This document shows positions 233 through 16,312 of a DNA stretch of 64,000 bases, piece after piece (positions within the stretch are counted from its first letter, which is position 1; each line of letters begins with the position of its first letter). The stretch covers positions 1 to 64,000 of the forward strand of contig NZ_FQVT01000001.1 in assembly GCF_900129445.1 (NCBI RefSeq), written 5' to 3'. Both the position numbers and the translations under genes were made by a program. This DNA is from Salegentibacter echinorum (GTDB lineage: Bacteria > Bacteroidota > Bacteroidia > Flavobacteriales > Flavobacteriaceae). The notes beneath the pieces were generated by a model, which was not told the origin of the DNA, did no database searches, and worked only from the letters and a program-made list of their open reading frames with translations.

Positions 233-598
233 ATGAAAAAGTTCGTTATTTATTCCATGATTTTAATGCTAATCTCCTGCGCAGAAGTTAAAAACAATTC
301 GCCGTCTGAAACCGCTAAAATTGTAGCGGAAAGTTTTTATCAGGGTGATAAAGAGTCTTTAAAAGCTCATACTACCGAGGAAGGATATTCCAATCTTTCC
401 AGTATTCAGGATATGTTTGTTGAGGATGCAAATTCTGAATCTAATTTTAAGGTAATGGATGAAGAGATAGAAGCTGAAGTAGCTTGGATAAAGTATTCTA
501 CAGCCTATGATCCAAAGCCTGGGGTTTTTAATTTAATTAAGAAGGATGGGAAATGGAAGGTTACACACAATGGGCCAAGGGAAAAGGGGCCTTTTTAA
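233..598 (+). CDS. Small lipoprotein, DUF4878/NTF2-like
   Basis: A 121-residue protein with a short hydrophobic signal ending in a lipobox (LMLISC, Cys about residue 16), so it is probably anchored in a membrane on the periplasmic side. The rest (ETAKIVAESFYQGDKESL, later DGKWKV near the C-terminus) has the layout of small NTF2-like DUF4878 lipoproteins: a helix followed by a curved sheet ending in a W-K-V strand. Such proteins have no defined reaction. The last ~55 residues are repeated, diverged, immediately downstream (599-768). The family call is from pattern only. Confidence 0.7.
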   Translation: MKKFVIYSMILMLISCAEVKNNSPSETAKIVAESFYQGDKESLKAHTTEEGYSNLSSIQDMFVEDANSESNFKVMDEEIEAEVAWIKYSTAYDPKPGVFNLIKKDGKWKVTHNGPREKGPF

Positions 599-768
599 AC
601 ATTTTCAATTCAAACTTTAAAGTCCTAAAAGAAACTTCTGACGGTAGCACCGTCGGGGTAAAATTCACCACTTCTTACACCGATGAACCGGAAACCTTTA
701 AGCTCATTATGGATTATGGCAATTGGAAGGTCACGGAACGGGATAAGGGGGAGCGGGCGCCTTTTTAA
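599..768 (+). pseudogene. 5'-truncated paralogue of the preceding lipoprotein
   Basis: The reading frame ending at 768 encodes a segment (SNFKVLKE, then YGNWKVTE, ending ERAPF) that aligns with the last ~55 residues of the upstream lipoprotein (SNFKVMDE, DGKWKVTH, ending EKGPF). Both copies end in the same CCTTTTTAAAC string. There is no signal peptide, and the frame opens inside the upstream gene, so I read this as the surviving 3' end of a tandem paralogue. Divergence between the copies suggests an old duplication. Confidence 0.6.
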
Positions 769-4430: not shown

Positions 4431-7400
4431 TTAAGCTTCTTCTACTATCCCAATTTCCTCCTCCGTCAACCCATATAATTCATAAACCAGCCGGTCGATT
4501 TCGGCTTCTAAGGAGGAAGTGTCTGCTGTGGCATTCTCTTTTTTTAACTCTATTATTTGATTCACTAAGGTTTCTAAAATTTCTTCTTCTTGAAGAGTTG
4601 CCACTTTGATTGGAAGCATTTGTATTTTGTATTTTTTCCAACGATTAGTACCCATTCCAGTGGTCGTCCCTACGAGATTAAAGTACCATTCAGAAACTTT
4701 GGAGTTCAAGATTGCTAGTAGAAATTTTAATTTCTCTCCTGTCATCAAAAAAGTAGTAGCCTCGGCATAAAAACCAGAATCATCATATGCGAATTTTGGT
4801 CTATCTGATATTTCTCCCCATATTATTTTAGGTTTTTCAAAATCTTCTATATAAACACAATTCCTGAGATTTGTCCAGTGATCACCTTGGTCATATCTTT
4901 CTTGAACTTTTGGTAAGTAGCTTTCGAGAAATCTTTCAATTTCTGGGTAATCTCTCTCTACATTAATTCTAGAGATATCTTTCGCTTTGACACCATTGTG
5001 AGTATTCAGCAAATAAAAGCCATCAAAATCAAATATATACTTCTGTACATCTCTCCCTCGTAAAATGGGTTTTATTAGTTCCTCATTTTTCGGGTCAGCT
5101 AGAATCAAATTCTTTTTAGTCGCTTCATTTAGAATAAAGGCTGCATTATAACCTGTCTTTAATCCAAAATTAATTGTAATAGAAAATTCTTTCAGTAATT
5201 TAGACCCTTTTTCTATTTTCAATTTTAGTTTTGATTCTTCCTCATTACCAATGAACCAATCAGAACTTTTAGGTATTTTAAATTCGAAAGAATTTTGGTC
5301 AAAAAATTCAGATAACGAAGACCCCATGGAATATTCTTTTGAAAGATTTACTACCGGAAAGGACCCCGCTTTATACCCTTTCTGAAGAGTAATAATATTT
5401 GATTCTACAGTGGCTTCTTCAAAAACCTGAATATCTTCAATATTCATTAAGGAAACGGGTTGCAAGTTTTTAACGAAATAGTTTTTAAGGAGATCCCCAT
5501 ATATTCCGCGTAACCAAGAATTAGAAGTTATAAAAGTAAGAACACCATAATCTTTCATAATTTGCCCGCCACGTTCATAAAACAAACAATAAATGTCTGC
5601 ACCTTTAGAATAAGTTTTAAAATCTGCTTTAGAAAAATATTCAGATTGATCCTTTATTTTAGATAAAGAAAAATACGGAGGATTCCCAATCACCACATCA
5701 AAGCCTATATAATCTCCATCATCATTTAAGACCTCCGGAAATTCAAAGCGCCATTCAAAAGCATTTTCATAGATCTTATTGTCTTTGATCTCCTGGATGG
5801 CAGTTTCCAGTTTTTTGCTTTCTTTAGAAAGTTGCTCTACTTTTTTGTTCCACTTCGATTTCTCCCTTTTTGACAATTCAAACATTTTTGGTTGCTCTGT
5901 CATCAAAAAAAGTTTACTTTTTACCTTTTGAAGTTTCTTTATTTTAGGATCATTGGAGGAAATTTCACTTCTAAAATCATTTTTTATATCGTGGATGATC
6001 TTTTCCATCTCACGCTTTTGCTCTTTGTTTTCGGCATTCCGGTAGGTATCTACGCTAGTACGATAGCTGTCAATATTCCATTTGCTTTCTTTTAGCGCTT
6101 TGCTTAAGTCGGCATCCAGGTCAAAACGGCTAATAAGCGAATTTCCGCATTTAATATTGATATCAATATTTGGTAGTGTCTCTAATTCGGTGTCATTCTT
6201 ATAATAAGCATTTTTGAGAAGTTCTATCCATAATCTCAGTCGGCAAATCTTAACTGAATTGGGATTTATATCTACCCCAAAAAGACAGTTTTCAATAATC
6301 TGTTGCTTTTCATGAAAAAGCGCTTCCTGTATTCGCTGGCTTTCCTTAGCTGTTGGATTATATTCAAAGAGCTCGCCTTCTTCATCGGTTACGACAAGTT
6401 CATCGTTCACTACTTCTACCTGGTATTCCTTTAATCGCCGGCCAGAACGATCCTGCAGAATGTTCAGGTCGTTTTTAATGGCGATTATCTCATTAAGTGC
6501 AGAAACCAGAAAATGTCCCGAACCAACCGCAGGATCACAAATCTTTATGCTATTAATAAGCTCATTGGCTTCCTGCCGGTCTTCTATACGATCATACAAC
6601 TGTTCCAGATCCTTACAGTCCCAATTCTTGGTTTCATTAAACTTTTGTACCACCGCTTTCCTGATGGTTTCACGGCACATATACATCGTAATAAAACCGG
6701 GAGTAAAGAAAGAACCATCTTTATAGCCGTTTATCTTTTCGAAAATAAGCCCCAGCACAGAGGCATTAATAAGGGTTTTATTGTCTTCCTGAATCATTTC
6801 CCCACCTTCACTGCTAAAGTCGTAAGAGTTCAGAAATTCAAAAAGATATTCCAGGGCATTGATTTCGCCGCTGCGCTTTTTGCCTTTTTTGTCCTTTAGC
6901 ACCGTAGCGCTATAAATAGGCAGGGTCTTATCGTCCCGAAGGTTGCTAATAAACAGCGTGCTGTGTTCAATATCTGTAGGCTCGAACAATGAACTGTTGA
7001 GATAAGGCACTTTTTCAAACAGTACTTTTACATCTTCATTTCTTTCATTATATTGCCTTGCCAGTACCTGAAAGAACAAACTATTGAGATCATCATAATT
7101 TTGTATCCTTTCCAGGCTAAGGAATTCATAAGACCTGTCGCCTTTATGGTAAGTAATAAGTTGTGCTTCGAGTAATTTTAAGAAAAGAATCCTATTCAGC
7201 CAGGTAATACTAAGCTCCAGTCCTACATTGAAGAGCCGTTCCTGTTGGTTTTTCCCAAAATGCGACGGATTCTGAAGACGACCAATCTTATCTGTACTAT
7301 CCAGTTGGATGATGGCATTTTCTAAGAAAGAACCGGTATTGCGCTGTCCTTCTTTTTGCCGTTCAATGATCTTCTTGCCGCCTTGTTTGGTTTCGGTAAG

Positions 7401-8234
7401 GCCTATAATATGAAGCAGCTCTCCGTAAAACTTTTTATCGAGACTATTGCTATCATTGAAAAACGGAAGCTTCAGCAAATGTTCAGGAGAAAACAGTTTA
7501 AAGAGCGTGATTAGCTTGTTATCATCCTTAGGATTATTGTTTCGAAGCGGTTTTTCATAATTCCGAATGTCGAAATGTGTGCATTCTACTTCCTGTTGTA
7601 GCTGGGCAATAAAAGGTTCGGCTATTTCTTTATAGAAAAAATCGGTGGTTTTTCCGGCCAGTCTTCCGGCTTCAAAATCGGTAAATTGATTTACCAGCTG
7701 TTTGTTTTCAGCAAATGCTTTCTCAAAAATATTGGCATCAAAAATAAACCACTCGTTAATATTGGTAGCGATTAGATATTTTACCTCCAAATTCTTCTGG
7801 GTAATACGCTCTCGAAGATAGTAAAGCACCAGTTCCTGAAATGCCTTAACATTTATCTTCTCTTTACTGAGCATTTCGGTCCGGTTCGTGGGCTTTTTTG
7901 CTTCAATGATAACTCCAACACTGCTTTTCGGCTTATTTCCGTTATGGATTACCAGGTCATTACGACCTTTGGTATTGATAAAATGATTGGGATTGTAGTA
8001 TGTCTTCTTTAGAAAATCTGTGACCAGATTTTTGTGGAATTCCTCGGACTCAGTATCGTTAGTACGATCCAGTAATTCTTTAAGACTACTTTTAAACAGC
8101 TCGATTTTAGAGCGGTTGGGCTTAAGCTTTAAAAAAGCTTTGTTGAGTGCCTTACGTGGCTTAAGGATATGAAAATTCCCTGAATTAATTTTCTGTTCCG
8201 TATGCATGCAGAAATGGGGGTGTTTTAAATACAA
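4431..8234 (-). CDS. Type IIG restriction-modification enzyme (Eco57I-like)
   Basis: A single 1267-residue chain combining nuclease and adenine-N6 methyltransferase. Residues ~60-120 contain RNDLVI...IIEAKKP, the D...ExK nuclease signature. SAM-binding motif I is DPAVGSGHFL (about 567), and the catalytic NPPYF (about 853) follows VVIGNPPY. The last ~350 residues, with a second GRDVQKY-like region, would be the target-recognition part. The chain ends VYELYGLTEEEI, a usual family ending. The start at 8234 may be a few codons early; an ATG at 8207 (MHTEQK) is also plausible. No frame break is seen, so it is probably active. Confidence 0.88.
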   Translation of the reverse strand: MYLKHPHFCMHTEQKINSGNFHILKPRKALNKAFLKLKPNRSKIELFKSSLKELLDRTNDTESEEFHKNLVTDFLKKTYYNPNHFINTKGRNDLVIHNGNKPKSSVGVIIEAKKPTNRTEMLSKEKINVKAFQELVLYYLRERITQKNLEVKYLIATNINEWFIFDANIFEKAFAENKQLVNQFTDFEAGRLAGKTTDFFYKEIAEPFIAQLQQEVECTHFDIRNYEKPLRNNNPKDDNKLITLFKLFSPEHLLKLPFFNDSNSLDKKFYGELLHIIGLTETKQGGKKIIERQKEGQRNTGSFLENAIIQLDSTDKIGRLQNPSHFGKNQQERLFNVGLELSITWLNRILFLKLLEAQLITYHKGDRSYEFLSLERIQNYDDLNSLFFQVLARQYNERNEDVKVLFEKVPYLNSSLFEPTDIEHSTLFISNLRDDKTLPIYSATVLKDKKGKKRSGEINALEYLFEFLNSYDFSSEGGEMIQEDNKTLINASVLGLIFEKINGYKDGSFFTPGFITMYMCRETIRKAVVQKFNETKNWDCKDLEQLYDRIEDRQEANELINSIKICDPAVGSGHFLVSALNEIIAIKNDLNILQDRSGRRLKEYQVEVVNDELVVTDEEGELFEYNPTAKESQRIQEALFHEKQQIIENCLFGVDINPNSVKICRLRLWIELLKNAYYKNDTELETLPNIDINIKCGNSLISRFDLDADLSKALKESKWNIDSYRTSVDTYRNAENKEQKREMEKIIHDIKNDFRSEISSNDPKIKKLQKVKSKLFLMTEQPKMFELSKREKSKWNKKVEQLSKESKKLETAIQEIKDNKIYENAFEWRFEFPEVLNDDGDYIGFDVVIGNPPYFSLSKIKDQSEYFSKADFKTYSKGADIYCLFYERGGQIMKDYGVLTFITSNSWLRGIYGDLLKNYFVKNLQPVSLMNIEDIQVFEEATVESNIITLQKGYKAGSFPVVNLSKEYSMGSSLSEFFDQNSFEFKIPKSSDWFIGNEEESKLKLKIEKGSKLLKEFSITINFGLKTGYNAAFILNEATKKNLILADPKNEELIKPILRGRDVQKYIFDFDGFYLLNTHNGVKAKDISRINVERDYPEIERFLESYLPKVQERYDQGDHWTNLRNCVYIEDFEKPKIIWGEISDRPKFAYDDSGFYAEATTFLMTGEKLKFLLAILNSKVSEWYFNLVGTTTGMGTNRWKKYKIQMLPIKVATLQEEEILETLVNQIIELKKENATADTSSLEAEIDRLVYELYGLTEEEIGIVEEA

Positions 8235-8440: not shown

Positions 8441-9000
8441 TTACGCAAATATCGGCCTCGCCTATTCATAAACCCGCTCAAAATTAACCTCTAAATAAGC
8501 TTGAGTAAATTGTTTTGATTCCTCAGGAAGCTCTCTCTGAATATTCTGCAATTTAAACTGTACTTATTTATCCTTCCCATCTACATACGTAATAAACTCG
8601 CCTTGCTTTAACCTGAAAAAAACATCTGCTCTTATTTTTGGAATTTTCTTTTCCCCGGTAGTGACTCGCGTATCAAAATTGAGATTATTGCATCGGTTTA
8701 TACTGGTTGTTTCCTTTTTTCACAATTTCAAAAAAGCGTTCGTAGTATTTCGCGGTATCGAGATCGTTGACTTTCCAAAAAACTGGTAAGATAGATTGCT
8801 CAGAATAGCCAAACAGGTTTTATCGCCATACATCATCTCATTTTTAATTTTGTCCTGTATCACGTAAATTGTGGATAGGAAAATAATAACCTCTTAAAGG
8901 TTGCCGGAATGCGGTGCATATTTAGAAGTCTAATTGTGGGTGCTTCTTTCATCATTTAAAAGGATGGTTTTGTCCGCGCACACTTATTTGTTTGGTAATG
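8441..9000 (-). pseudogene. Decayed 3' end of coupling-protein gene, copy 1
   Basis: This ~560-base stretch aligns with the end of the intact TraG/VirD4-like gene (positions ~13665-14225): the same order of segments for the family ending (cctattcataaacccgctc), the 'gtttggtaatgg' box and the 'catcatc' region can be followed by eye. Many substitutions and small indels break the frame. It ends at the same stop-codon position as the intact gene. The rest of 8235-8440 shows no gene. Confidence 0.8.
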
Positions 9001-9097
9001 GGTAAGTCCCACCAAAAATTAATTCTAAAATTCTTTCTATTCGTTGGCTCTAAGTGGTTTTGCAATTCATTTCTTTTGTGTTCGGAAATAAAAACAT

Positions 9098-9340
9098 TTA
9101 AAATTTCTCATACTTGGTGGGTGACTTGCAGGGTACTTGCAGGGTACTTGGGGGGTACTTGCGGGGTTCTTGTTCAGTAACTTGCAGGTTACTTTCGTGA
9201 TACTTGCTCGTTGTCTTGCTCGGTAACTTGCTCGGTTTGCTGAATTTCTGATGCGGGGGCAGCACCATTCTTAAAAAGTTTTCAGGGAAACAAAAGCAAT
9301 CTTCATTATAGTGCTCCAATAACCTGGGGATTCCTGAATT
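9098..9340 (-). pseudogene. C-terminal remnant of an AlbA/HATPase_c_4 (RecG-like) regulator
   Basis: The minus strand reads NSGIPRLLEHYNEDCF and FPENFLRMVLPP, the region that ends the HATPase_c_4 domain in 'ATP-dependent DNA helicase RecG-related' AlbA proteins (GTGIPRIL..., FRVTLP). A low-complexity S/K/P/Q-rich tail follows, which is where the 11-base repeat lies. Nothing resembling the AlbA N-terminal domain is present upstream, so only the last fifth of the gene survives. The remaining bases to 9462 hold nothing I can identify. Confidence 0.45.
9110..9235. repeat. Imperfect 11-base tandem repeat, about 11 units
   Basis: Units of the form TACTTGCAGGG (also ACTTGGGGGG, ACTTGCGGGG, ACTTGCTCGG) run head to tail. 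The first four units are nearly identical and later ones diverge, with 12-base variants. Because the period is not a multiple of three, each unit shifts the frame, so the repeat either arose after the host gene died or encodes a cycling low-complexity tail. There are no unique spacers, so it is not a CRISPR array. Confidence 0.75.
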
Positions 9341-9462
9341 TTGACGATGGTGTCGGCATTATATTTTTAAGTGCTCTGTAGGTACTTACGCCAAGATTGT
9401 TAGTTAACGAGTTTTAAAATAAGGCCTATGCGGTTATTAATAATCCAAATCTAAGCCTTGCT

Positions 9463-10725
9463 TTAAAATTTAAAAACATCCTGCATCAATGCTATTTCAT
9501 TTCCTGGAATTCCGAGTTCCAAAGCTAGCTGCTCCCATTTTGCTACCTGATTTTGAACTGAATTTATAATTCTTTTTGTTTCGGTTTCTTTGAGACGAAA
9601 ATAGGGTGCAACTTCTTTCGCTAAGTCTATTTCCAAAGCGTTATCATCTTCAGAAATATTAAGCTTTAAACCAGCGCTATTAGGCGTAGGATTGATGTCG
9701 TAAGCTGGCGAAAGTACCCAGCCGGAATTCGTTAATAAGAATCCGTGATTTCGGAGGTGATCGTCTGTATTGGAAACACAGATATTAAACACAATACGGG
9801 TCCATAGTTTTTTAAGGTCGTTATCTATATCGGCACCTTGTTGCATTAGAAATTCTACAAGTTCCAAATAGCTGGCGCCATCTTGATAATCGGTTCCATC
9901 GGTATAGCCTAACAAGGTCATTGCCGAAGCAAAATGAATACGCGTTCCATCATTTTTTCTATCAAATCGCTGCGTTAAAAACGTATGTTGATGATGGGAG
10001 AACTTTTCCACTCTAGACGGTGCCATACCAATCCCAGACAGGACTGCAAGTCGATAAACCAGCATTTCCCAGGCACCCATATCGCGTGAATCATTTTGAC
10101 TCGGAAATTTGGCAATCCATAAATGACCATCAGTATCCCGGATATTTGCTTTTGGGCGGGCTCCTCCCAAAGATGATCCCGGTGCCATTAACATATTGAG
10201 CCATTTTACATATTCTGGGTTTTCAGAAGCATCATCTTTCTCTAACTGCAAGCTTGCATACTCAAGATCTCTTAGTGCCGCAAAAGGTGGTGCGGCCATT
10301 TCTTTGTTATCATCCAAAAAATAACCATTTTGTTCGGTTTTAAAGCGGAGACCGCCCATCCGGTTACCATCAAACACCCCAAGTAGGTAATCGGACTCCA
10401 TTAATGTTTTTGCACGGCGATCTTCTCGACGCGCTTTTGCAGCCTCTTTTCGAAGCATAAGGACGCGTCCCCATCGGTCTGGTGATGAATCGAGGAATAT
10501 TCCAAAATTAGATTTTTCATCATTAAGGAACTGCATTCCTTCAAATAATTGCAAATCTGGGTCTATGATTTGGGCAAAATCCGATTGCAACCACTTCTTA
10601 TCATATTCGAAAGAGAATATTTCTTTACCTCTTGAAGGCGTAGCATACAAAATACCCATCAAAAAGGGTTCTTCTATGCCTTCCCAATCTGCATAAACCA
10701 ATATTTCTTTTCGCGCTTTTATCAT
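9463..10725 (-). CDS. hipA: HipA-family serine/threonine kinase toxin
   Basis: 420 residues, the usual length for a full HipA with N-terminal subdomain. The P-loop-like segment is SSLGGARPKANI (about 190), followed by LWIAKFPSQ. The catalytic loop is NTDDHLRNHGF (about 320), and the Mg-binding AYDINPTP lies ~20 residues later. HipA toxins phosphorylate aminoacyl-tRNA synthetases and induce dormancy. The start overlaps the last base of the hipB stop (TAATG-type coupling at 10725). All catalytic residues are present. It sits as cargo between decayed coupling-gene copies 1 and 2. Confidence 0.92.
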   Translation of the reverse strand: MIKARKEILVYADWEGIEEPFLMGILYATPSRGKEIFSFEYDKKWLQSDFAQIIDPDLQLFEGMQFLNDEKSNFGIFLDSSPDRWGRVLMLRKEAAKARREDRRAKTLMESDYLLGVFDGNRMGGLRFKTEQNGYFLDDNKEMAAPPFAALRDLEYASLQLEKDDASENPEYVKWLNMLMAPGSSLGGARPKANIRDTDGHLWIAKFPSQNDSRDMGAWEMLVYRLAVLSGIGMAPSRVEKFSHHQHTFLTQRFDRKNDGTRIHFASAMTLLGYTDGTDYQDGASYLELVEFLMQQGADIDNDLKKLWTRIVFNICVSNTDDHLRNHGFLLTNSGWVLSPAYDINPTPNSAGLKLNISEDDNALEIDLAKEVAPYFRLKETETKRIINSVQNQVAKWEQLALELGIPGNEIALMQDVFKF

Positions 10726-11045
10726 TATTCCTTACTATTTTTAGGGCCGCGTTCCTTGACGGTGAGATTGGCATCCTGTATTTTCCTACCTAATACATCA
10801 TCCTCTGCCAAAAGAAGTAAATCTTTTTCCAAACCTAATACTAACAGGACTTGAAGAACAATCCCTAAAGAAACTGCCGAACTTCCATTTTCTATTGAAG
10901 ACAATGTTGGTCTGGATATACCAGCACGCTCAGAAACTTGCGCCATGGTAAGTTTTCGGCGTAAGCGCGCCAACTTAATATTTTCTCCCACAGTTTCTAA
11001 AATCCTTCTATTTTTAGGAAGTAAAACAATCTTATTTCGAGACAT
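10725..11045 (-). CDS. hipB: HipB-like HTH antitoxin
   Basis: A 106-residue protein with a central Xre-type helix-turn-helix: IKLARLRRKLTMAQVSERAGISRPTLSSIENG. It has a ~20-residue basic N-terminal extension (PKNRRILETVG) and a ~25-residue C-terminal tail that in HipB proteins contacts HipA. It precedes and is coupled to hipA. An inverted repeat lies directly upstream (11057-11080) and is the likely binding site for autorepression. Confidence 0.9.
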   Translation of the reverse strand: MSRNKIVLLPKNRRILETVGENIKLARLRRKLTMAQVSERAGISRPTLSSIENGSSAVSLGIVLQVLLVLGLEKDLLLLAEDDVLGRKIQDANLTVKERGPKNSKE

Positions 11046-11056
11046 AACGTTAAGTA

Positions 11057-11097
11057 TATTTTACAAATATATGTAAAATAATAAAGAGTATTTTACA
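11057..11097. promoter_or_regulatory. hipBA operator: palindrome plus third half-site
   Basis: TATTTTACA (11057-11065) and its exact reverse complement TGTAAAATA (11072-11080) are 6 bases apart, 12 bases upstream of the hipB start. A third TATTTTACA follows at 11089-11097. Perfect 9-base arms at a HipB promoter fit autoregulation; binding is inferred. Confidence 0.7.
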
Positions 11098-11305
11098 TTA
11101 CTTAATAATAGGTATATTCAGCGCATTAAAAGCTCAAGCCCTTAACTCTTTCTTTCGGCTTTTCTTGGTTTACTTACATACATTATTTACTCTGGTAGAT
11201 TTTAGCGTTTTATTTATAAGGCTGTTAAACAAGATCATCAATTTCACATCAAATTGTATTATTTTGACGACACTGTCGTCACAATATTCACTTCAGAGTA
11301 TAGAC

Positions 11306-11336
11306 TCAATTCGGGACACAGTGCGTCCCGAATTGA
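11306..11336. repeat. Perfect 12-base inverted repeat in the cargo junction
   Basis: TCAATTCGGGAC (11306-11317) and GTCCCGAATTGA (11325-11336) flank a 7-base loop, followed by five A. Between hipB and copy 2 (11101-11368) I see no gene. Just before it, at 11262-11300, the minus strand reads NIVTTVSSK, similar to the AEYGG-IVPTVSSQL segment of the DUF1016 gene at 2312-2812, so a tiny DUF1016 relic may be here. Function of the hairpin is unknown; terminator or recombination site are both possible. Confidence 0.55.
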
Positions 11337-11368
11337 AAAAGCGTTGATTTAATAGAAAAAATCACTTT

Positions 11369-11505
11369 TCATTTATCAAATAACGACCGAACCTCCTCAT
11401 AAACCAATTCAAAAGTAGCCACTAAATCTGCTTGGGAATACTGTTCCAATTCTTCGGAAAGTTTCCTTATAATCTTTTGTATTGTAAACTGTACCCTCTT
11501 AGCTT
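11369..11505 (-). pseudogene. Decayed 3' end of coupling-protein gene, copy 2
   Basis: About 135 bases match the last ~45 codons of the intact gene at 13665. The conserved 'cctcctcataaacc' box and the 'tattgtaaactgtac' box are in the right order, and the end is at the homologous stop (SLFDK-stop versus SIFNQ-stop). Similarity is lost near 11505. It is the shortest and one of the more diverged copies. Confidence 0.75.
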
Positions 11506-11660
11506 TTCAATCCAAATTGTCTAATAATCATTGTAGTGGTTGCATTCGAACTATTCTAGACTAATTTTCAAAAAATTCTTTGTTTCAGATATATTATATT
11601 GATTTCATCAATCGTTCACTTTTTTCGTAGTTTGCGCGCTCAATTCTCCAAAGAAAATAA

Positions 11661-12302
11661 ATGGAAGTTCATAGGATAAAAGCCTTACACGCTAATACTA
11701 TTCGTTATACATTTTTTTTTATCGGTCTTATATGTTTTGGACTGGGCGTAGCCTTTGCCGTTAAGGTTAAATATTTAGGCTTACATCCCTGGGATGTTCT
11801 GAACGTGGCGCTATTTGAACATTTTGGTTTAAGTATTGGAACCTGGAGTATTATCGTGGGTTTAGTTCTCATTGGTGTCTCGTTGCTTGTGAGTAAGAAA
11901 TATGTCAATATAGGAACATTTCTAAATGCTTTACTCATCGGTCCTATTATGGACTTTTTTCTTTGGTTAGATATATTGCCGGACGCTAGTCATAATTGGA
12001 CGGACTACCTTTTGCTGCTTTTTGGCATTTTGCTCATTGGGTTAGGGGGAGGTTTATACGTATCGGGTAATGTAGGTGCTGGACCGCGTGACGGATTTAT
12101 GCTTTCCATTTCGGAAAGATTTAGGTTATCTGTAGTAAAAGCAAGAATCGTTGTCGAACTCACCGTGCTGGCTCTCGGATTTCTTCTTGGCGGTCCGATT
12201 TTTTGGGTTACTTTCATCTACACTTTAATACTGAGTCCAATTTTTCAATTTTCATTAAAGTTTTTTACATATTTGCGAACACAATTAGAAGGGAGGTATT
12301 GA
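11661..12302 (+). CDS. YczE/YitT-like integral membrane protein
   Basis: 213 residues with five to six transmembrane segments (about 15-35, 54-76, 85-103, 115-136, 163-186, 190-208). VSGNVGAGPRDGFMLSIS is the signature segment of the YczE (DUF6198) membrane family, whose role is unknown; some members lie beside regulators or exporters. It is the only plus-strand gene in this mobile region and is isolated, with its own upstream gap. It is bounded by coupling-gene copies 2 and 3, so it appears to be cargo. Confidence 0.8.
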   Translation: MEVHRIKALHANTIRYTFFFIGLICFGLGVAFAVKVKYLGLHPWDVLNVALFEHFGLSIGTWSIIVGLVLIGVSLLVSKKYVNIGTFLNALLIGPIMDFFLWLDILPDASHNWTDYLLLLFGILLIGLGGGLYVSGNVGAGPRDGFMLSISERFRLSVVKARIVVELTVLALGFLLGGPIFWVTFIYTLILSPIFQFSLKFFTYLRTQLEGRY

Positions 12303-12369
12303 TCCTTAGTATCGCATATGATGTTCATTAATTATTTTAAAATCAAATTTTAGTTTCCCGGGTCAGTCC

Positions 12370-12680
12370 CTATTTATTAAATATCGACCTCACCTCCTCA
12401 TAAACCCGTTCAAAATTAGCCGCTAAATCTTCTTGAGAAAACTGCTTTGTTTTTCCGGTAATGCTCTCTGAATATTTGCCAATTTAGACTGCACTTTTTT
12501 ATCCTTCTCGTCGGCATAAGTGATAAACTCGCCTTGCTCCAAACGAAAGAACTCATCTGCCCGTATTTTAGGTATTTCTTTTCCCCTTTTTAATTCGGGT
12601 ATCAAAATCAAGGTTATGGCTACGGTTTACGCTTTTGTTCGGATTTTTTATAATTTCAAAAATCGTTCGTAATATTTGTT
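12370..12680 (-). pseudogene. Decayed 3' end of coupling-protein gene, copy 3
   Basis: This ~310-base copy is the best preserved of the remnants. It follows the intact gene from the stop (SIFNK-stop) through 'cctcctcataaacccgttc', 'gctctctgaatatttgccaatt' and 'gaaagaactcatctgcccg' to the 'aaaatcgttcgtaatatttg' box (equivalent to ~13975), with a short damaged stretch near 12590. High similarity to the intact gene suggests a more recent event than copies 1 and 2. The rest of the 12303-12751 gap contains nothing else I can name. Confidence 0.85.
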
Positions 12681-12751
12681 TTGTTTCATCTCAGGAATGT
12701 GAAAAATAATTAAAGTAAGGTTGTCTATGGTTTGGTGATTACTGTATTTCA

Positions 12752-13492
12752 TTATAGTTCGACCAAGGATTGGCCTAATAACAATGCCCCAATACAGATT
12801 AATCCTATATAAACGTAATTTAGAAATATGCCATCTTTTAACCTGTGATTTAAAAACCTTCCAAGAAAAATAGTGGGGATCGCAACCGGTAAGGATATGA
12901 GAAAATAATAGGTTACTGTTGGGGTCCAGAGACCTTTGTACCAATAACCAAACATACCAATCATACTGGCCGGTAAAAAATAGGCTTGTAAGGTCGCCCT
13001 AAAATGTTTGGCCGTCCAATTGCGCATATTGCCATAGATCACAAGTGGAGGGCCATTAAGGCCATAAGCACCACCAAAAATACCTGATAAAAAGCCGCAA
13101 ATGAAAAGCCAAGCTTTATTATCAGTTTTTAATTTAAAATCGTTTTTTGAAAGTAAGGAATAGATAGCATATAAAACAATCAGTATTCCCAATCCTGATT
13201 TTATAAGGTTTTCATTTCCATAAACAAGTAACAATAATCCTACAGGAATACCAATGGCTGCAAAAAGCAATAACCATTTTGCACTATTAAAATGTATTTG
13301 TTTCTTGTCTTGTACAACCACAATTGCAGCAATAGTAATCGATAAAAGCACGGAAAGAGGAACAGCAATTTCTATTGGGATAAAAAGTATAAGAAGGGGA
13401 ACGGCTACCATGGATTCCCCAAAACCAAAAGTTGAACGAACCAAGGTAGCAAGGAAAATGATAATTAAGATGTAAAAAGTCACTAAATCCAT
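12752..13492 (-). CDS. TauE/SafE (TSUP) family anion permease
   Basis: 246 residues with seven to eight membrane segments and the family signatures FGFGESMVAVPLLIL near the N-terminus and LSGIFGGAYGLNGPPLVIY in the middle. TSUP proteins export or import sulfite, sulfonates or organosulfur anions across the inner membrane; the substrate here cannot be read. It has a stand-alone promoter region (13493-13664) and lies between copy 3 and the intact coupling gene. Confidence 0.85.
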   Translation of the reverse strand: MDLVTFYILIIIFLATLVRSTFGFGESMVAVPLLILFIPIEIAVPLSVLLSITIAAIVVVQDKKQIHFNSAKWLLLFAAIGIPVGLLLLVYGNENLIKSGLGILIVLYAIYSLLSKNDFKLKTDNKAWLFICGFLSGIFGGAYGLNGPPLVIYGNMRNWTAKHFRATLQAYFLPASMIGMFGYWYKGLWTPTVTYYFLISLPVAIPTIFLGRFLNHRLKDGIFLNYVYIGLICIGALLLGQSLVEL

Positions 13493-13664
13493 TTATTTCA
13501 AGGTGGAATGTTGATTTCGGGAAGTCAACCTATCTAGGATATTTTTTACTTTTCCTAGCTACATAATTTGTTACAAAAGTACTAATATCACTTTAGATTG
13601 TAAGGTTGAAAAAGGTTCAAGATACCATCAAATTCAGTAATAAAATTGTTGAAGATGGCCATAT

Positions 13665-15248
13665 TCATTGATTAAAGATGGATCTCACCTCCTCATAGAC
13701 CCGTTCAAAATTAGCCGTTAAATCTTCTTGAGTAAACTGTTTTGGTTCTTCCGGTAATGCTCTCTGAATATTTGCCAATTTAAACTGCACTTTTTTGTCC
13801 TTCCCATCGGCATAAGTAATGAACTCCCCTTGCTGCAAACGAAAGAACTCATCGGCCCTAATTTTCGGGATTTCCTTTTCTCCTGTGGTGACCCGTGTAT
13901 CAAAGTTAAGATTGTGTCCCCGATTTACACTGGTGGTCTGTTTCTTTACAATCTCAAAGAATCGTTCGTAGTATTTGGCGGTATCGGGATCGTTAACCTT
14001 TCCAAAAAACTGATAGGACAGATTGCTTAATATCGCCTTACTGGCTTTATCACCGTACATCATATCGTTTTGGATTTTGTCCTGCATCACGTAGATGGTG
14101 GCAATATCATAACTCCGCAGGGTTGCCGGAATACGGTGCATATTAAGCAAACGGATGGTCGGGGCCTCTTCCATCATTAAAAAGGATGGTTTTTGTCCGC
14201 GTACACTCATTTGTTTGGTAATGGTGTGGATAATAGTCGCAATAACCGGGGAGTAAGAGCTTTCAAACTTAGGATTATTCACTATTGAAATTACAGCCGG
14301 ATTTTCTTCACTGTTGATATCAAGTGGCACTTCATCTTTGGAAAGTACCATAAAAATCCGTTGGGTGCTGATACGCTTTAAGGCATTGGCCAGTGTACTT
14401 TTCACCCCGGCAGTTTGCCGTTCGGAATCTTTCCCACTGATAAACGCATCGGCCATGGCCCTGGAGGTGGTATTGGTTTCTAAAAATTGCACCAGGCTAT
14501 CGGTATCCAAATATTGGTAGATAGCAATCAAATGGGGGAGGGTGCAAAACTCAGGATAGGAGGTTTTAAGTTTCCAGATGAGCCCGCCGATCAATCCCTC
14601 CGCAGCATCATTAAAAAACCTGGTGGTCCCGGACGCATAGGAATCCCTTTGCTCCAACAGGTTTTCGATAAGCACTCGCGAGACCTCATTCACACTCTCT
14701 TCGTTTTCCAAATAGCGCGGGGCTATGGGGTTCACCCTGTGAATAATATGATCAAAAGAAATAATTTTAAACGGAACATCATGATCCTTAAACAAGGGGT
14801 AAGCCATCTCAGTAAGCTCAAAATCCTTGTAATCGTGGATGATGCCGCAAAAGCTTTCCTTTTGAAAATGCTTTAAAAACCCATACACCACACTTTCGGT
14901 CTTCCCACTTCCTGCAGAACCAATAATGGAAGCACCGCGTTTGATGTTATCGAGTTTAAAATTACCCTGCTTAGTGGCAAAGCTCACCCGGTATTTTAGG
15001 TCGCTGTTTTTTGGATTATCTGAGGTATGCAGAAAAACGTACATCCCGGTGTTGATGAGCAAAAGTGGACAGCCAAAATATAGAAGCAATACGAAGATGG
15101 TATTGGCAGTGTAGAGACTAAATATAAGTATACCGATCAATAGGAGGTTAATCATAAACGCATAGCGCGTCAATCGGAATATCCCATAAAATAACAGGCT
15201 GCTTAGAGCAAGGATCATGAGGATTGTAAAAAGACTGTCTGTTTCCAT
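13665..15248 (-). CDS. bfmC: Type IV coupling protein (TraG/VirD4, BfmC-type)
   Basis: 527 residues. Three N-terminal hydrophobic segments (to about residue 75) anchor it in the inner membrane. The P-loop is IGSAGSGKTES (about 110), and SIVNNP and SFLMMEEAP (Walker B-like) follow. The C-terminal ~120 residues are the part repeated as decayed copies upstream. Such ATPases pass the relaxase-DNA complex to a conjugation channel supplied by another element. It starts 12 bases after the relaxase gene in one operon (mobilization genes A, B, C). Shorter than full VirD4 because it lacks an all-alpha domain. Confidence 0.85.
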   Translation of the reverse strand: METDSLFTILMILALSSLLFYGIFRLTRYAFMINLLLIGILIFSLYTANTIFVLLLYFGCPLLLINTGMYVFLHTSDNPKNSDLKYRVSFATKQGNFKLDNIKRGASIIGSAGSGKTESVVYGFLKHFQKESFCGIIHDYKDFELTEMAYPLFKDHDVPFKIISFDHIIHRVNPIAPRYLENEESVNEVSRVLIENLLEQRDSYASGTTRFFNDAAEGLIGGLIWKLKTSYPEFCTLPHLIAIYQYLDTDSLVQFLETNTTSRAMADAFISGKDSERQTAGVKSTLANALKRISTQRIFMVLSKDEVPLDINSEENPAVISIVNNPKFESSYSPVIATIIHTITKQMSVRGQKPSFLMMEEAPTIRLLNMHRIPATLRSYDIATIYVMQDKIQNDMMYGDKASKAILSNLSYQFFGKVNDPDTAKYYERFFEIVKKQTTSVNRGHNLNFDTRVTTGEKEIPKIRADEFFRLQQGEFITYADGKDKKVQFKLANIQRALPEEPKQFTQEDLTANFERVYEEVRSIFNQ

Positions 15249-15259
15249 AGTAGCTAAAT

Positions 15260-16312
15260 TTAGATTCCGATTGAACTTGATTTTACAGCGATATCAACTC
15301 CCTTACGTAGTTTATGAAATAGTTTCAGAGCGAGTTGCGTCTGACTGACAGGGATGCTGGGCACCATTGGGATACCTGTTTCCTTTAATATTTTAAAAGC
15401 AATGGCTTTTTCACTGGCAGGTAACCCGGTTAAAGAAGCAAAGTAGTTTTTTGGGTTCTTGATAAACTGCTTCCTTGCTTTATAGGTTTCTACGAAGTTT
15501 CGCTGATACCCGAATGTTTGGTCAAATGTTTTTTCAGCGTTTTTAAAAAATTGATCTCGGTCAAAACCGCGTTTTACTGTTTTACCATTTAATTCGACCT
15601 GAGAAGCTCGGTATTTGCTTCCGGGCGATAAACTGAACCTATTGGATGCATCTTTACGACTTACAATGATATGGATGTGACTTTGGTTGCCTTCCTTTTG
15701 CATTCCCTGCACGATCCGCTGACCATTTTGTTGGTGTGGCGCTTGACGTTCCAGCTGATCAATTTGCCGTTGCATAATTTTGGTGCTTCCTGCTATTTCA
15801 CCGCGTTCCACTTTTCGTATATTGGTCTTTAGCTGAAGGATTTTTGTGGCATAAGGCTGATTCTCTTTTACCTGTTTATCGGTACCCTTAAATGCTCGCC
15901 GGTGTTCAATTTTTGCATAGTATTTAATATTATCGATGCTTACCGGTCGCCCATTGATTTCGCGGTTAAAGGATTTCACGTAATCCTTCATTAATTCTCG
16001 CGTGTACTTTTTAAGATCTTCACTGCTATCTTGCAATCGTCTTAATTCGTACTTAGAAGGACTGACGGTAATGGAGTAGAAGCGAGGTTCGGTTTTTTCC
16101 AATTTTGCAGTATTTTTATCAATAGCTTTGACCACTTTTGAAGCTGAAATTTCATCTTCATATTGATTGAAAAAGTGTTCTATATTTTCTGCAGCTCCAG
16201 ATGGCAATTCTCCTTCTAAAGCTTGGTTTTCTTTTTCCAGATAATCCACAAAATCTGCTGAACTTTTGGAATAACTAGCGCCCAATTTTTGTGGTGTGAT
16301 CGTGATATACAT
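15260..16312 (-). CDS. bfmB: MobB-type relaxase (BfmB/DUF5712)
   Basis: 350 residues opening MYITITPQKLG, typical of Bacteroidota MobB relaxases. The metal-binding HIHIIVSRKD (H-x-H) lies near residue 215, with FYSITVSPSKYE upstream. A long basic helical linker (residues ~155-205) separates strands of the relaxase fold. It would nick at oriT and stay linked to DNA during transfer. The gene starts 12 bases after bfmA. Full length is retained, so the element could still be mobilized. Confidence 0.82.
   Translation of the reverse strand: MYITITPQKLGASYSKSSADFVDYLEKENQALEGELPSGAAENIEHFFNQYEDEISASKVVKAIDKNTAKLEKTEPRFYSITVSPSKYELRRLQDSSEDLKKYTRELMKDYVKSFNREINGRPVSIDNIKYYAKIEHRRAFKGTDKQVKENQPYATKILQLKTNIRKVERGEIAGSTKIMQRQIDQLERQAPHQQNGQRIVQGMQKEGNQSHIHIIVSRKDASNRFSLSPGSKYRASQVELNGKTVKRGFDRDQFFKNAEKTFDQTFGYQRNFVETYKARKQFIKNPKNYFASLTGLPASEKAIAFKILKETGIPMVPSIPVSQTQLALKLFHKLRKGVDIAVKSSSIGI

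Follow-up and report, generated by a model that had tools for sequence, protein, structure and literature searches.

Remnants of a mobC-like gene end among the cargo of a transfer element in Salegentibacter echinorum and its relatives

In integron arrays, new cargo enters beside a fixed gene and older cargo moves back. Immunity-gene arrays of the type VI secretion system (T6SS) in Vibrio cholerae have been attributed to sequential displacement: in the parts of Kirchberger 2017 (PMC5361080) used here, homologous recombination adds modules after a conserved anchor, the far joint being proposed as illegitimate, and older 3′ parts are displaced downstream; whole arrays then move as blocks by ordinary recombination. 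In the portion of Garriss 2009 (PMC2786100) used here, related integrative and conjugative elements (ICEs) of the SXT/R391 type are reported to form hybrids by recombining via conserved core genes, mainly dependent on recA. Both descriptions resemble what we see in the first 64 kb of contig C28 of Salegentibacter echinorum, the stretch analysed here and referred to as the window, in a genome assembled as 40 contigs. The window carries a transfer element with a mobC-like coupling-protein gene (mobC hereafter), behind which three decayed copies of the 3′ end of that gene, named c1, c2 and c3, stand between unrelated cargo genes. We consider it probable that homologous recombination at the border of the conserved backbone adds or swaps cargo, sometimes leaving the old mobC 3′ end behind as a scar.

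Remnants of the mobC 3′ end

Remnants were sought with a nucleotide profile (nhmmer) of the last 600 nt of mobC, built on 150 intact genes, and control profiles were made for the mobC 5′ end, the mobB 3′ end and the mobB 5′ end. In the window, c1, c2 and c3 all lie downstream of the live mobC and on its strand, and they end within 2 nt of the model end but differ in their starts (Table 1). A tblastn search of the same genome recovered the same three fragments, each with in-frame stops, and a repeat search of the window returned the four-copy family as well as longer pairings. Such a family, with one strand and a homologous stop, had been proposed in an earlier note on this DNA, which named a common end point and orientation beforehand as the test of its reading; all copies agree on both in the profile search, and the coordinates shift by a few bases. 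The TauE, YczE-like and HipBA cargo that it placed between the copies is confirmed by Pfam and NCBIfam matches, with that of the YczE-like protein below cutoff, and the cargo flanked by 3′ ends that it proposed to look for in relatives is also found.

Compared loci are given L-numbers and contigs of the S. echinorum genome C-numbers, L009 being the element on C32 of that genome. The first fetch comprised 163 loci, reduced to 150 by dropping eight duplicates and five loci without an intact mobC; a second fetch of 20 loci, less seven duplicates and one without an intact mobC, added 12, for a total of 162. Nine downstream remnants were found in seven of these loci (the window, L009, L041, L121, L122, L123 and L200). 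All nine lie on the strand of the gene and end within 4 nt of the profile end, and their starts on the profile are at 44, 175, 179, 264, 291, 397, 460, 491 and 522. The start at 291, that of c3, is secondary: the C32 element keeps about 196 nt more at the same junction, about 115 of it mobC, and by eye this piece was deleted from c3 in the window at a short repeat, AAATA.

Apart from the genes they were made for, the three control profiles had no match at E ≤ 1 among the first 150 loci; for the 12 loci added later, no match fell below E 3. A further match to the 3′ profile at E ≤ 1 (L196, E 0.27) lies upstream and falls short of the gene end, and is taken as chance. Searches of 161 loci with the element's own proteins found no mobB fragment; their other matches were one weak antisense mobA (E 7e-4) and full-length ssb paralogues in 4 + 1 loci. 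With a full-length query, for which up to four candidates per genome were scored, C-terminal mobC parts were seen in at least five further loci without an intact mobC. Fragments of this kind, with no intact gene in the stretch examined, are present in L124–L128 and L201. Short pieces preceding the remnants of L121 (5672–5821, TnpB-like) and L123 (15090–15272, IS3-like) read like transposase fragments but had no Pfam match even at E 0.1.

The 162 loci are a non-random sample, in which the window and L009 are the finding itself, and L121–L123 and L200 were chosen for a visible fragment. The count of 7/162 is unusable as a frequency because some loci were picked for a fragment already seen; without these six, L041 is the sole remnant carrier among 156 loci. 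Closer to a true frequency is the result of a C-terminal query, for which a downstream same-strand remnant of an intact gene was seen in five (G000, G030, G094, G100 and G215) of the best 80 of 94 genomes with mobC-type matches. In a plasmid search, all matches were below 60% identity.

Cargo exchange at the mobC border

Crossovers within mobC join one backbone to the mobC 3′ end and cargo of another element. This is clearest in the set L060, L069, L089 and L066, where mobC changes lineage in its last ~240–400 nt and the cargo changes too. L069 (Leeuwenhoekiella marinoflava) and L089 (Galbibacter orientalis) show no mismatch over 1247 nt and then 71 mismatches in 334 nt (p ≤ 5e-5), followed by unrelated DNA directly past the stop and a return of homology at about +4.1 kb. 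Within the same last 334 nt of L069, 68 informative sites match L066 (Gillisia lutea) and seven match L089, and L069 and L066 have 6.4 kb in common across the stop, at 94.6%. For L060 and L089 the switch falls about 243 nt before the end, with 28 mismatches in 1338 nt and then 64 in 243. These crossovers, which carry cargo along, are direct evidence of exchange. For pairs with mobC 90–99% identical, identity over the last 30 nt averages 0.73 where cargo differs (7 pairs) and 0.92 where it is shared (8 pairs); the pairs are non-independent, and three of the 18, with a short shared stretch past the stop, were put in neither group. L091 and L094 share cargo with the last 30 nt of mobC at only 0.47.

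The mobC stop codon is the border between the conserved conjugation backbone and cargo. Of 249 locus pairs that reached 85% mobC identity, 229 were analysed. Where mobC is 85–90% identical, the upstream 1.5 kb is covered at 98–99% on average, and downstream homology reaches the mobC stop in 14 of 208 pairs; for closer pairs it does so in 14 of 21. A small convergent gene, of the type found at the right border of the cargo region in the window, lies inverted downstream of mobC in 69 of the 162 loci. In 126 pairs the homology across this border gene is 85% or more; it begins between −30 and +60 nt of the gene's stop in 85 of them, continues into cargo common to both in 40 and begins within the gene in one. 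Because homology breaks at both the mobC stop and the border-gene stop, cargo in those loci is flanked by two convergent gene ends. In the window a 162-nt 3′-end remnant of the border gene adjoins the live gene on the same strand, with 36% amino acid identity to it, and is the mirror image of the mobC scars. An 85-nt piece of the right-border 3′ end is seen in one other locus, L137.

In one comparison, added cargo stands with an older 3′ end beside older cargo. L041 (Galbibacter orientalis) has a live mobC, 3.7 kb of cargo, a remnant and then older cargo; L044 (Mesonia aquimarina) has the counterpart of the remnant and of 5.2 kb of this older cargo as its live mobC end and cargo, with 99.5% identity along 5327 bp. 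The two sequences agree almost perfectly starting some 46 nt ahead of the stop, and leftward of this both are mobC-like but different. The remnant end of L041 belongs with its older cargo. L044 is without the 3.7-kb insert and the live mobC end of L041 differs from that of L044, and therefore L044 represents the state lacking the inserted cargo; judged from the sequences, the direction of change would be one of addition.

Older cargo is found directly behind a live mobC stop elsewhere for three of the nine remnants, the L041/L044 case included. The YczE-like gene, which follows c3 in the window, stands in the same orientation behind the live mobC stop of L115 (Gelidibacter algens), and homology between the two spans mobC −308 to +714 (76.6% over 1063 nt). 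A block of ArsR, phosphatase-like and SBF-type genes (Pfam), which we take to be an arsenic (ars-like) block, lies behind the C32 remnant, and begins 21 nt past the live stop in L085 (Galbibacter pacificus), at 75–76% identity. The HipBA cargo behind c2 has only distant relatives: nine other loci carry a HipA gene past mobC, with 53–55% amino acid identity. No match at E 1e-15 was found in the other loci of the 162 for the older cargo of L121, L122, L123 and L200 or for the restriction cargo of the window.

The S. echinorum genome has three further intact mobC genes, of which that on C32 has its remnant 2 kb downstream. The other two (C18:62194–63768 and C18:103708–105228) are 82% and 77% identical to that of the window at the amino acid level, with no remnants in the flanks examined. 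The window and C32 elements share TauE (window 12658–13595, 95.9% identity) and the first ~78 nt of the remnant, with two mismatches, then differ at 40 of 230 positions and have unrelated cargo past the stop of the remnant. The comparison of c3 with the C32 remnant, together with that of L041 and L044, suggests that exchange has occurred inside remnants. The C32 element also has an IS1595-family transposase gene (Pfam; L009 8316–9218) between mobC and TauE, absent from the window junction. At L009 13617–14290, compared with window 9338–11100, HipB-like sequence is kept and most of HipA is lost, and an antitoxin-like gene is left without a toxin.

Features of the window are collected in Table 1. 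The backbone lies entirely on the minus strand and includes a DUF6876 protein, a RadC-domain protein, the MobB relaxase and the MobC-like coupling protein; a further minus-strand open reading frame (ORF) reads, we assume, as ssb-like, and a mobA-like ORF without a Pfam match is named by position. The live mobC is the final backbone gene ahead of cargo, with its stop at 13665, and reaches 174 bits against the NCBIfam model Bacteroid_MobC, below the 900-bit cutoff. Downstream of it follow TauE, c3, the YczE-like gene on the other strand, c2, HipB–HipA, a relic, c1 and an Eco57I-type protein. This last protein has 1267 amino acids and a weak likeness, below cutoffs, to the PglX methyltransferase of bacteriophage exclusion (BREX) systems. 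The relic beside c1 (9101–9358), earlier described as that of a regulator, has no Pfam match; imperfect 11-nt tandem repeats lie in its ORF at 9113–9206. The c2 region (11306–11512) resembles the live mobC end of L198 (−152 to +62) at 73%. Just past the c2 stop, 30 nt (11307–11336) that look by eye like an inverted repeat resembling a terminator are 100% identical in L010, on the opposite strand.

Table 1. Coordinates and supporting matches of window features
Feature	Position	Strand	Evidence
mobC-like coupling-protein gene, VirD4/TraG type	13665..15248	-	Pfam T4SS-DNA_transf, TrwB_AAD_bind, TraG-D_C
Backbone MobB family relaxase	15260..16312	-	DUF5712 E 8e-111; NCBIfam MobB_relaxase 400 bits, cutoff 200
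Remnant c1, longest	8442..9001	-	nhmmer E 6.6e-132, model 44-599 of 600
Remnant c2	11373..11512	-	nhmmer E 2.8e-16, model 460-599
Remnant c3, possibly mosaic	12375..12678	-	nhmmer E 4.9e-63, model 291-598
Cargo 1, TauE/SafE family exporter, between live mobC and c3	12752..13492	-	Pfam PF01925
Cargo 2, YczE-like membrane protein, between c3 and c2	11661..12302	+	NCBIfam NF052291 144 bits, under cutoff 205
Cargo 3, HipB-like antitoxin	10725..11045	-	HTH_3
Cargo 3, HipA-like toxin	9463..10725	-	HipA_C E 8.4e-52
Cargo 4, past c1, Eco57I-type restriction-modification protein	4431..8234	-	DUF7149, DUF7814, Eco57I, TaqI_C
Right border gene of cargo region, convergent with mobC	233..598	+	no Pfam or NCBIfam match
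3′-end remnant of right border gene, faces cargo	607..768	+	nhmmer E 3.1e-23, model 89-250 of 250

Mechanism and alternative explanations

In the mechanism that we propose, incoming DNA would consist of a mobC 3′ part and its cargo, and a homologous crossover would take place in the resident mobC. The far end of the incoming DNA would join resident DNA upstream of this crossover, inside the resident mobC 3′ end, either by homology-facilitated illegitimate recombination or by homology to a remnant that the donor already carried. The product would be a live mobC, new cargo, a truncated old 3′ end and old cargo, and repeated rounds would give rise to the array of remnants in the window. As for the mode of the far joint, the varied remnant starts would favour illegitimate joining, whereas L041 would favour homology. 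Remnants might afterwards serve as further homology blocks for cargo exchange, and such use of a remnant, which the earlier note does not foresee, may have occurred at c3 and in L041/L044. In a bolder version, which we find doubtful, cargo bracketed by mobC 3′ ends would be a recombinase-free cassette, excised or copied by RecA and inserted at related mobC ends or remnants, forming an integron-like array built on homology with a mirror system at the right border gene.

Stepwise addition of cargo, as the earlier note proposed, is supported by the same anatomy in the C32 element and five other loci, by the mobC switches that accompany a change of cargo, and by the empty site that L044 provides for L041. 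Several observations weigh against such exchange at the backbone border. For the steps in the window itself, no empty site was found among the relatives compared, and 155 of the 162 loci have no remnant (seven loci have less than 1 kb of sequence downstream of mobC). L081 and L114 differ in cargo though the last 60 nt of their mobC genes are identical. Nearest-neighbour sharing between gene windows, used as a test for a hot spot, came to 77–95 out of 150 whichever two windows were paired and did not fall off specially at the mobC 3′ end. Recombination occurs throughout mobC, and a hot spot at its 3′ end was set aside. The strongest split between L041 and L044 lies 1077 nt from the mobC end, and the left part of the L041 remnant retains its likeness to mobC, suggesting homology at either side. 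Statistical support for a mosaic split of c3 against the remnant on C32 is modest (p = 0.027). When remnants were compared with all 162 live genes, six of the nine were nearest to the live gene of their own locus, and for c1 the nearest was the sister gene on C32, followed by the live gene of the window. Lastly, RecA dependence of the exchange is assumed by analogy with SXT/R391 elements, as presented in the part of PMC2786100 used here, and this too counts on the negative side.

The relative ages of the remnants are harder to read than was first suggested. The live 3′ end is replaceable and remnants may be mosaics, which makes identity to the live gene an unsafe measure of age; the proposal to date the copies in this way has to be given up. 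If additions always entered beside the live gene, c1 would be the oldest and c3 the youngest by position, but this order is unreliable because exchange at remnants breaks the rule of entry beside the live gene. Nor is c3 private to the window: the C32 element has TauE and the left portion of c3 as well. The term mobilizable element, also from the earlier note, fits the presence of a MobB relaxase and a MobC-like coupling protein (the latter under the Bacteroid_MobC cutoff), a CTnDOT-like mob feature, but may be too narrow, given the TraG genes and the edges of the contigs. Matches to TraG occur on C18, roughly 12 kb past an intact mobC, and on two contigs of 4278 bases, C8 and C9; the border gene is at contig ends of both C28 and C32. 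This suggests that the window element could be a full conjugative element, the assembly of which was broken at a repeated tra operon.

An unlikely alternative is tandem accretion followed by deletion, in which a related element integrates alongside and the backbone is deleted to the mobC 3′ end, while the scar and old cargo stay. This would account for the same strand, the common stop and the variable starts, and accretion of integrative and mobilizable elements (IMEs) and cis-mobilizable elements (CIMEs) by site-specific integration is described in the part of PMC5704250 used here. Deletion end points would, however, be expected across the ~5.4-kb backbone, and all nine remnants fall within the last ~560 nt of mobC; the lack of any mobB fragment in 161 loci argues the same way, although survivorship could bias this result if longer repeats had recombined away. 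No integrase is apparent among the junction ORFs, for which no dedicated search for attachment (att) sites was made.

Quite improbable as a general explanation is local duplication and decay of a locus's own gene end, with cargo inserted later between the copies. The six remnants nearest to their own live gene agree with it, but would also be expected if donor and resident were close kin. In L121, L122 and L123 the remnants are 87–93% identical to their own gene at the nucleotide level, with the next best at 73–79%, those of L121 and L122 start about 390–410 nt from the live stop, and that of L123 has 94% amino acid identity to the live end; for these three loci, local duplication could be the explanation. 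Against it, c2 and the L200 remnant are nearest to other genes, with their own live genes ranking only 58th and 30th, and in L041 the remnant end and 5.2 kb correspond to the mobC end and cargo of another element, whereas the live end of L041 is different. In L121 and L123 the mismatches of the remnant to the live gene cluster in the last quarter (17/107 and 16/84), as if the live end had been replaced, in a gene tail that is variable in general.

Site-specific integration at the coupling-gene 3′ end with the gene end restored each time, as for islands at transfer RNA genes, has a precedent in Firmicutes IMEs reported (in the part of PMC5704250 used here) to integrate within traG of ICEs, and the profile starts of two remnants in the unrelated loci L009 and L121 are no more than 4 nt apart, but it was set aside as very improbable on the varied remnant starts: all nine differ (291 arising from the later c3 deletion), the junction is not constant, lineage switches fall at different points, and no recombinase was seen among TauE, YczE, HipB, HipA, the restriction protein or five further ORFs, in a systematic scan that did not extend to the small ORFs of the window or to cargo in other loci.

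Comparison with known systems

If cargo is added and swapped by homologous recombination at the backbone border, as we favour, the last conserved gene is the exchange border and its dead ends mark some of the past steps. From them one can read, in part, how Flavobacteriaceae conjugative elements gather toxin–antitoxin, transport and restriction genes. Cargo is predicted to lie between mobC and, in many loci, the convergent border gene, and coupling-gene trees would mix lineages, which calls for caution in phylogenies. A literature search of open-licence papers, covering titles and the starts of abstracts, found no account of this arrangement.

CdiA, alongside Rhs, is a comparable system. In Rhs loci, as presented in the part of PMC5361080 used here, a constant 5′ part is likewise combined with displaced, orphan 3′ regions strung behind the live gene; the variable 3′ region is there the selected product, whereas mobC 3′ ends keep one role and carry cargo. 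Integrons, with which a comparison is drawn in the same source, are alike in the entry of cargo next to a fixed gene, but in the present elements the repeats are gene ends of variable length, and homology probably drives the process; no search for integron features was made. For the SXT/R391 hybrids, no array of displaced core-gene ends is described in the portion of PMC2786100 used here, and these elements carry the Red-like genes s065 and s066, of a kind not sought in the present elements.

The closest match is with the T6SS arrays, and we find here a conserved anchor with switches, displaced 3′ parts on the same strand, and a simpler relative (L044 for L041). The displaced 3′ parts of the T6SS arrays include functional immunity genes, as far as the consulted part of that work goes, whereas those described here are ends of a conjugation gene with unrelated cargo. 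In short, sequential displacement and border recombination take a variant form here, in the apparently new setting of a conserved coupling gene whose dead ends act as scars and possible homology arms, with a mirrored right border.

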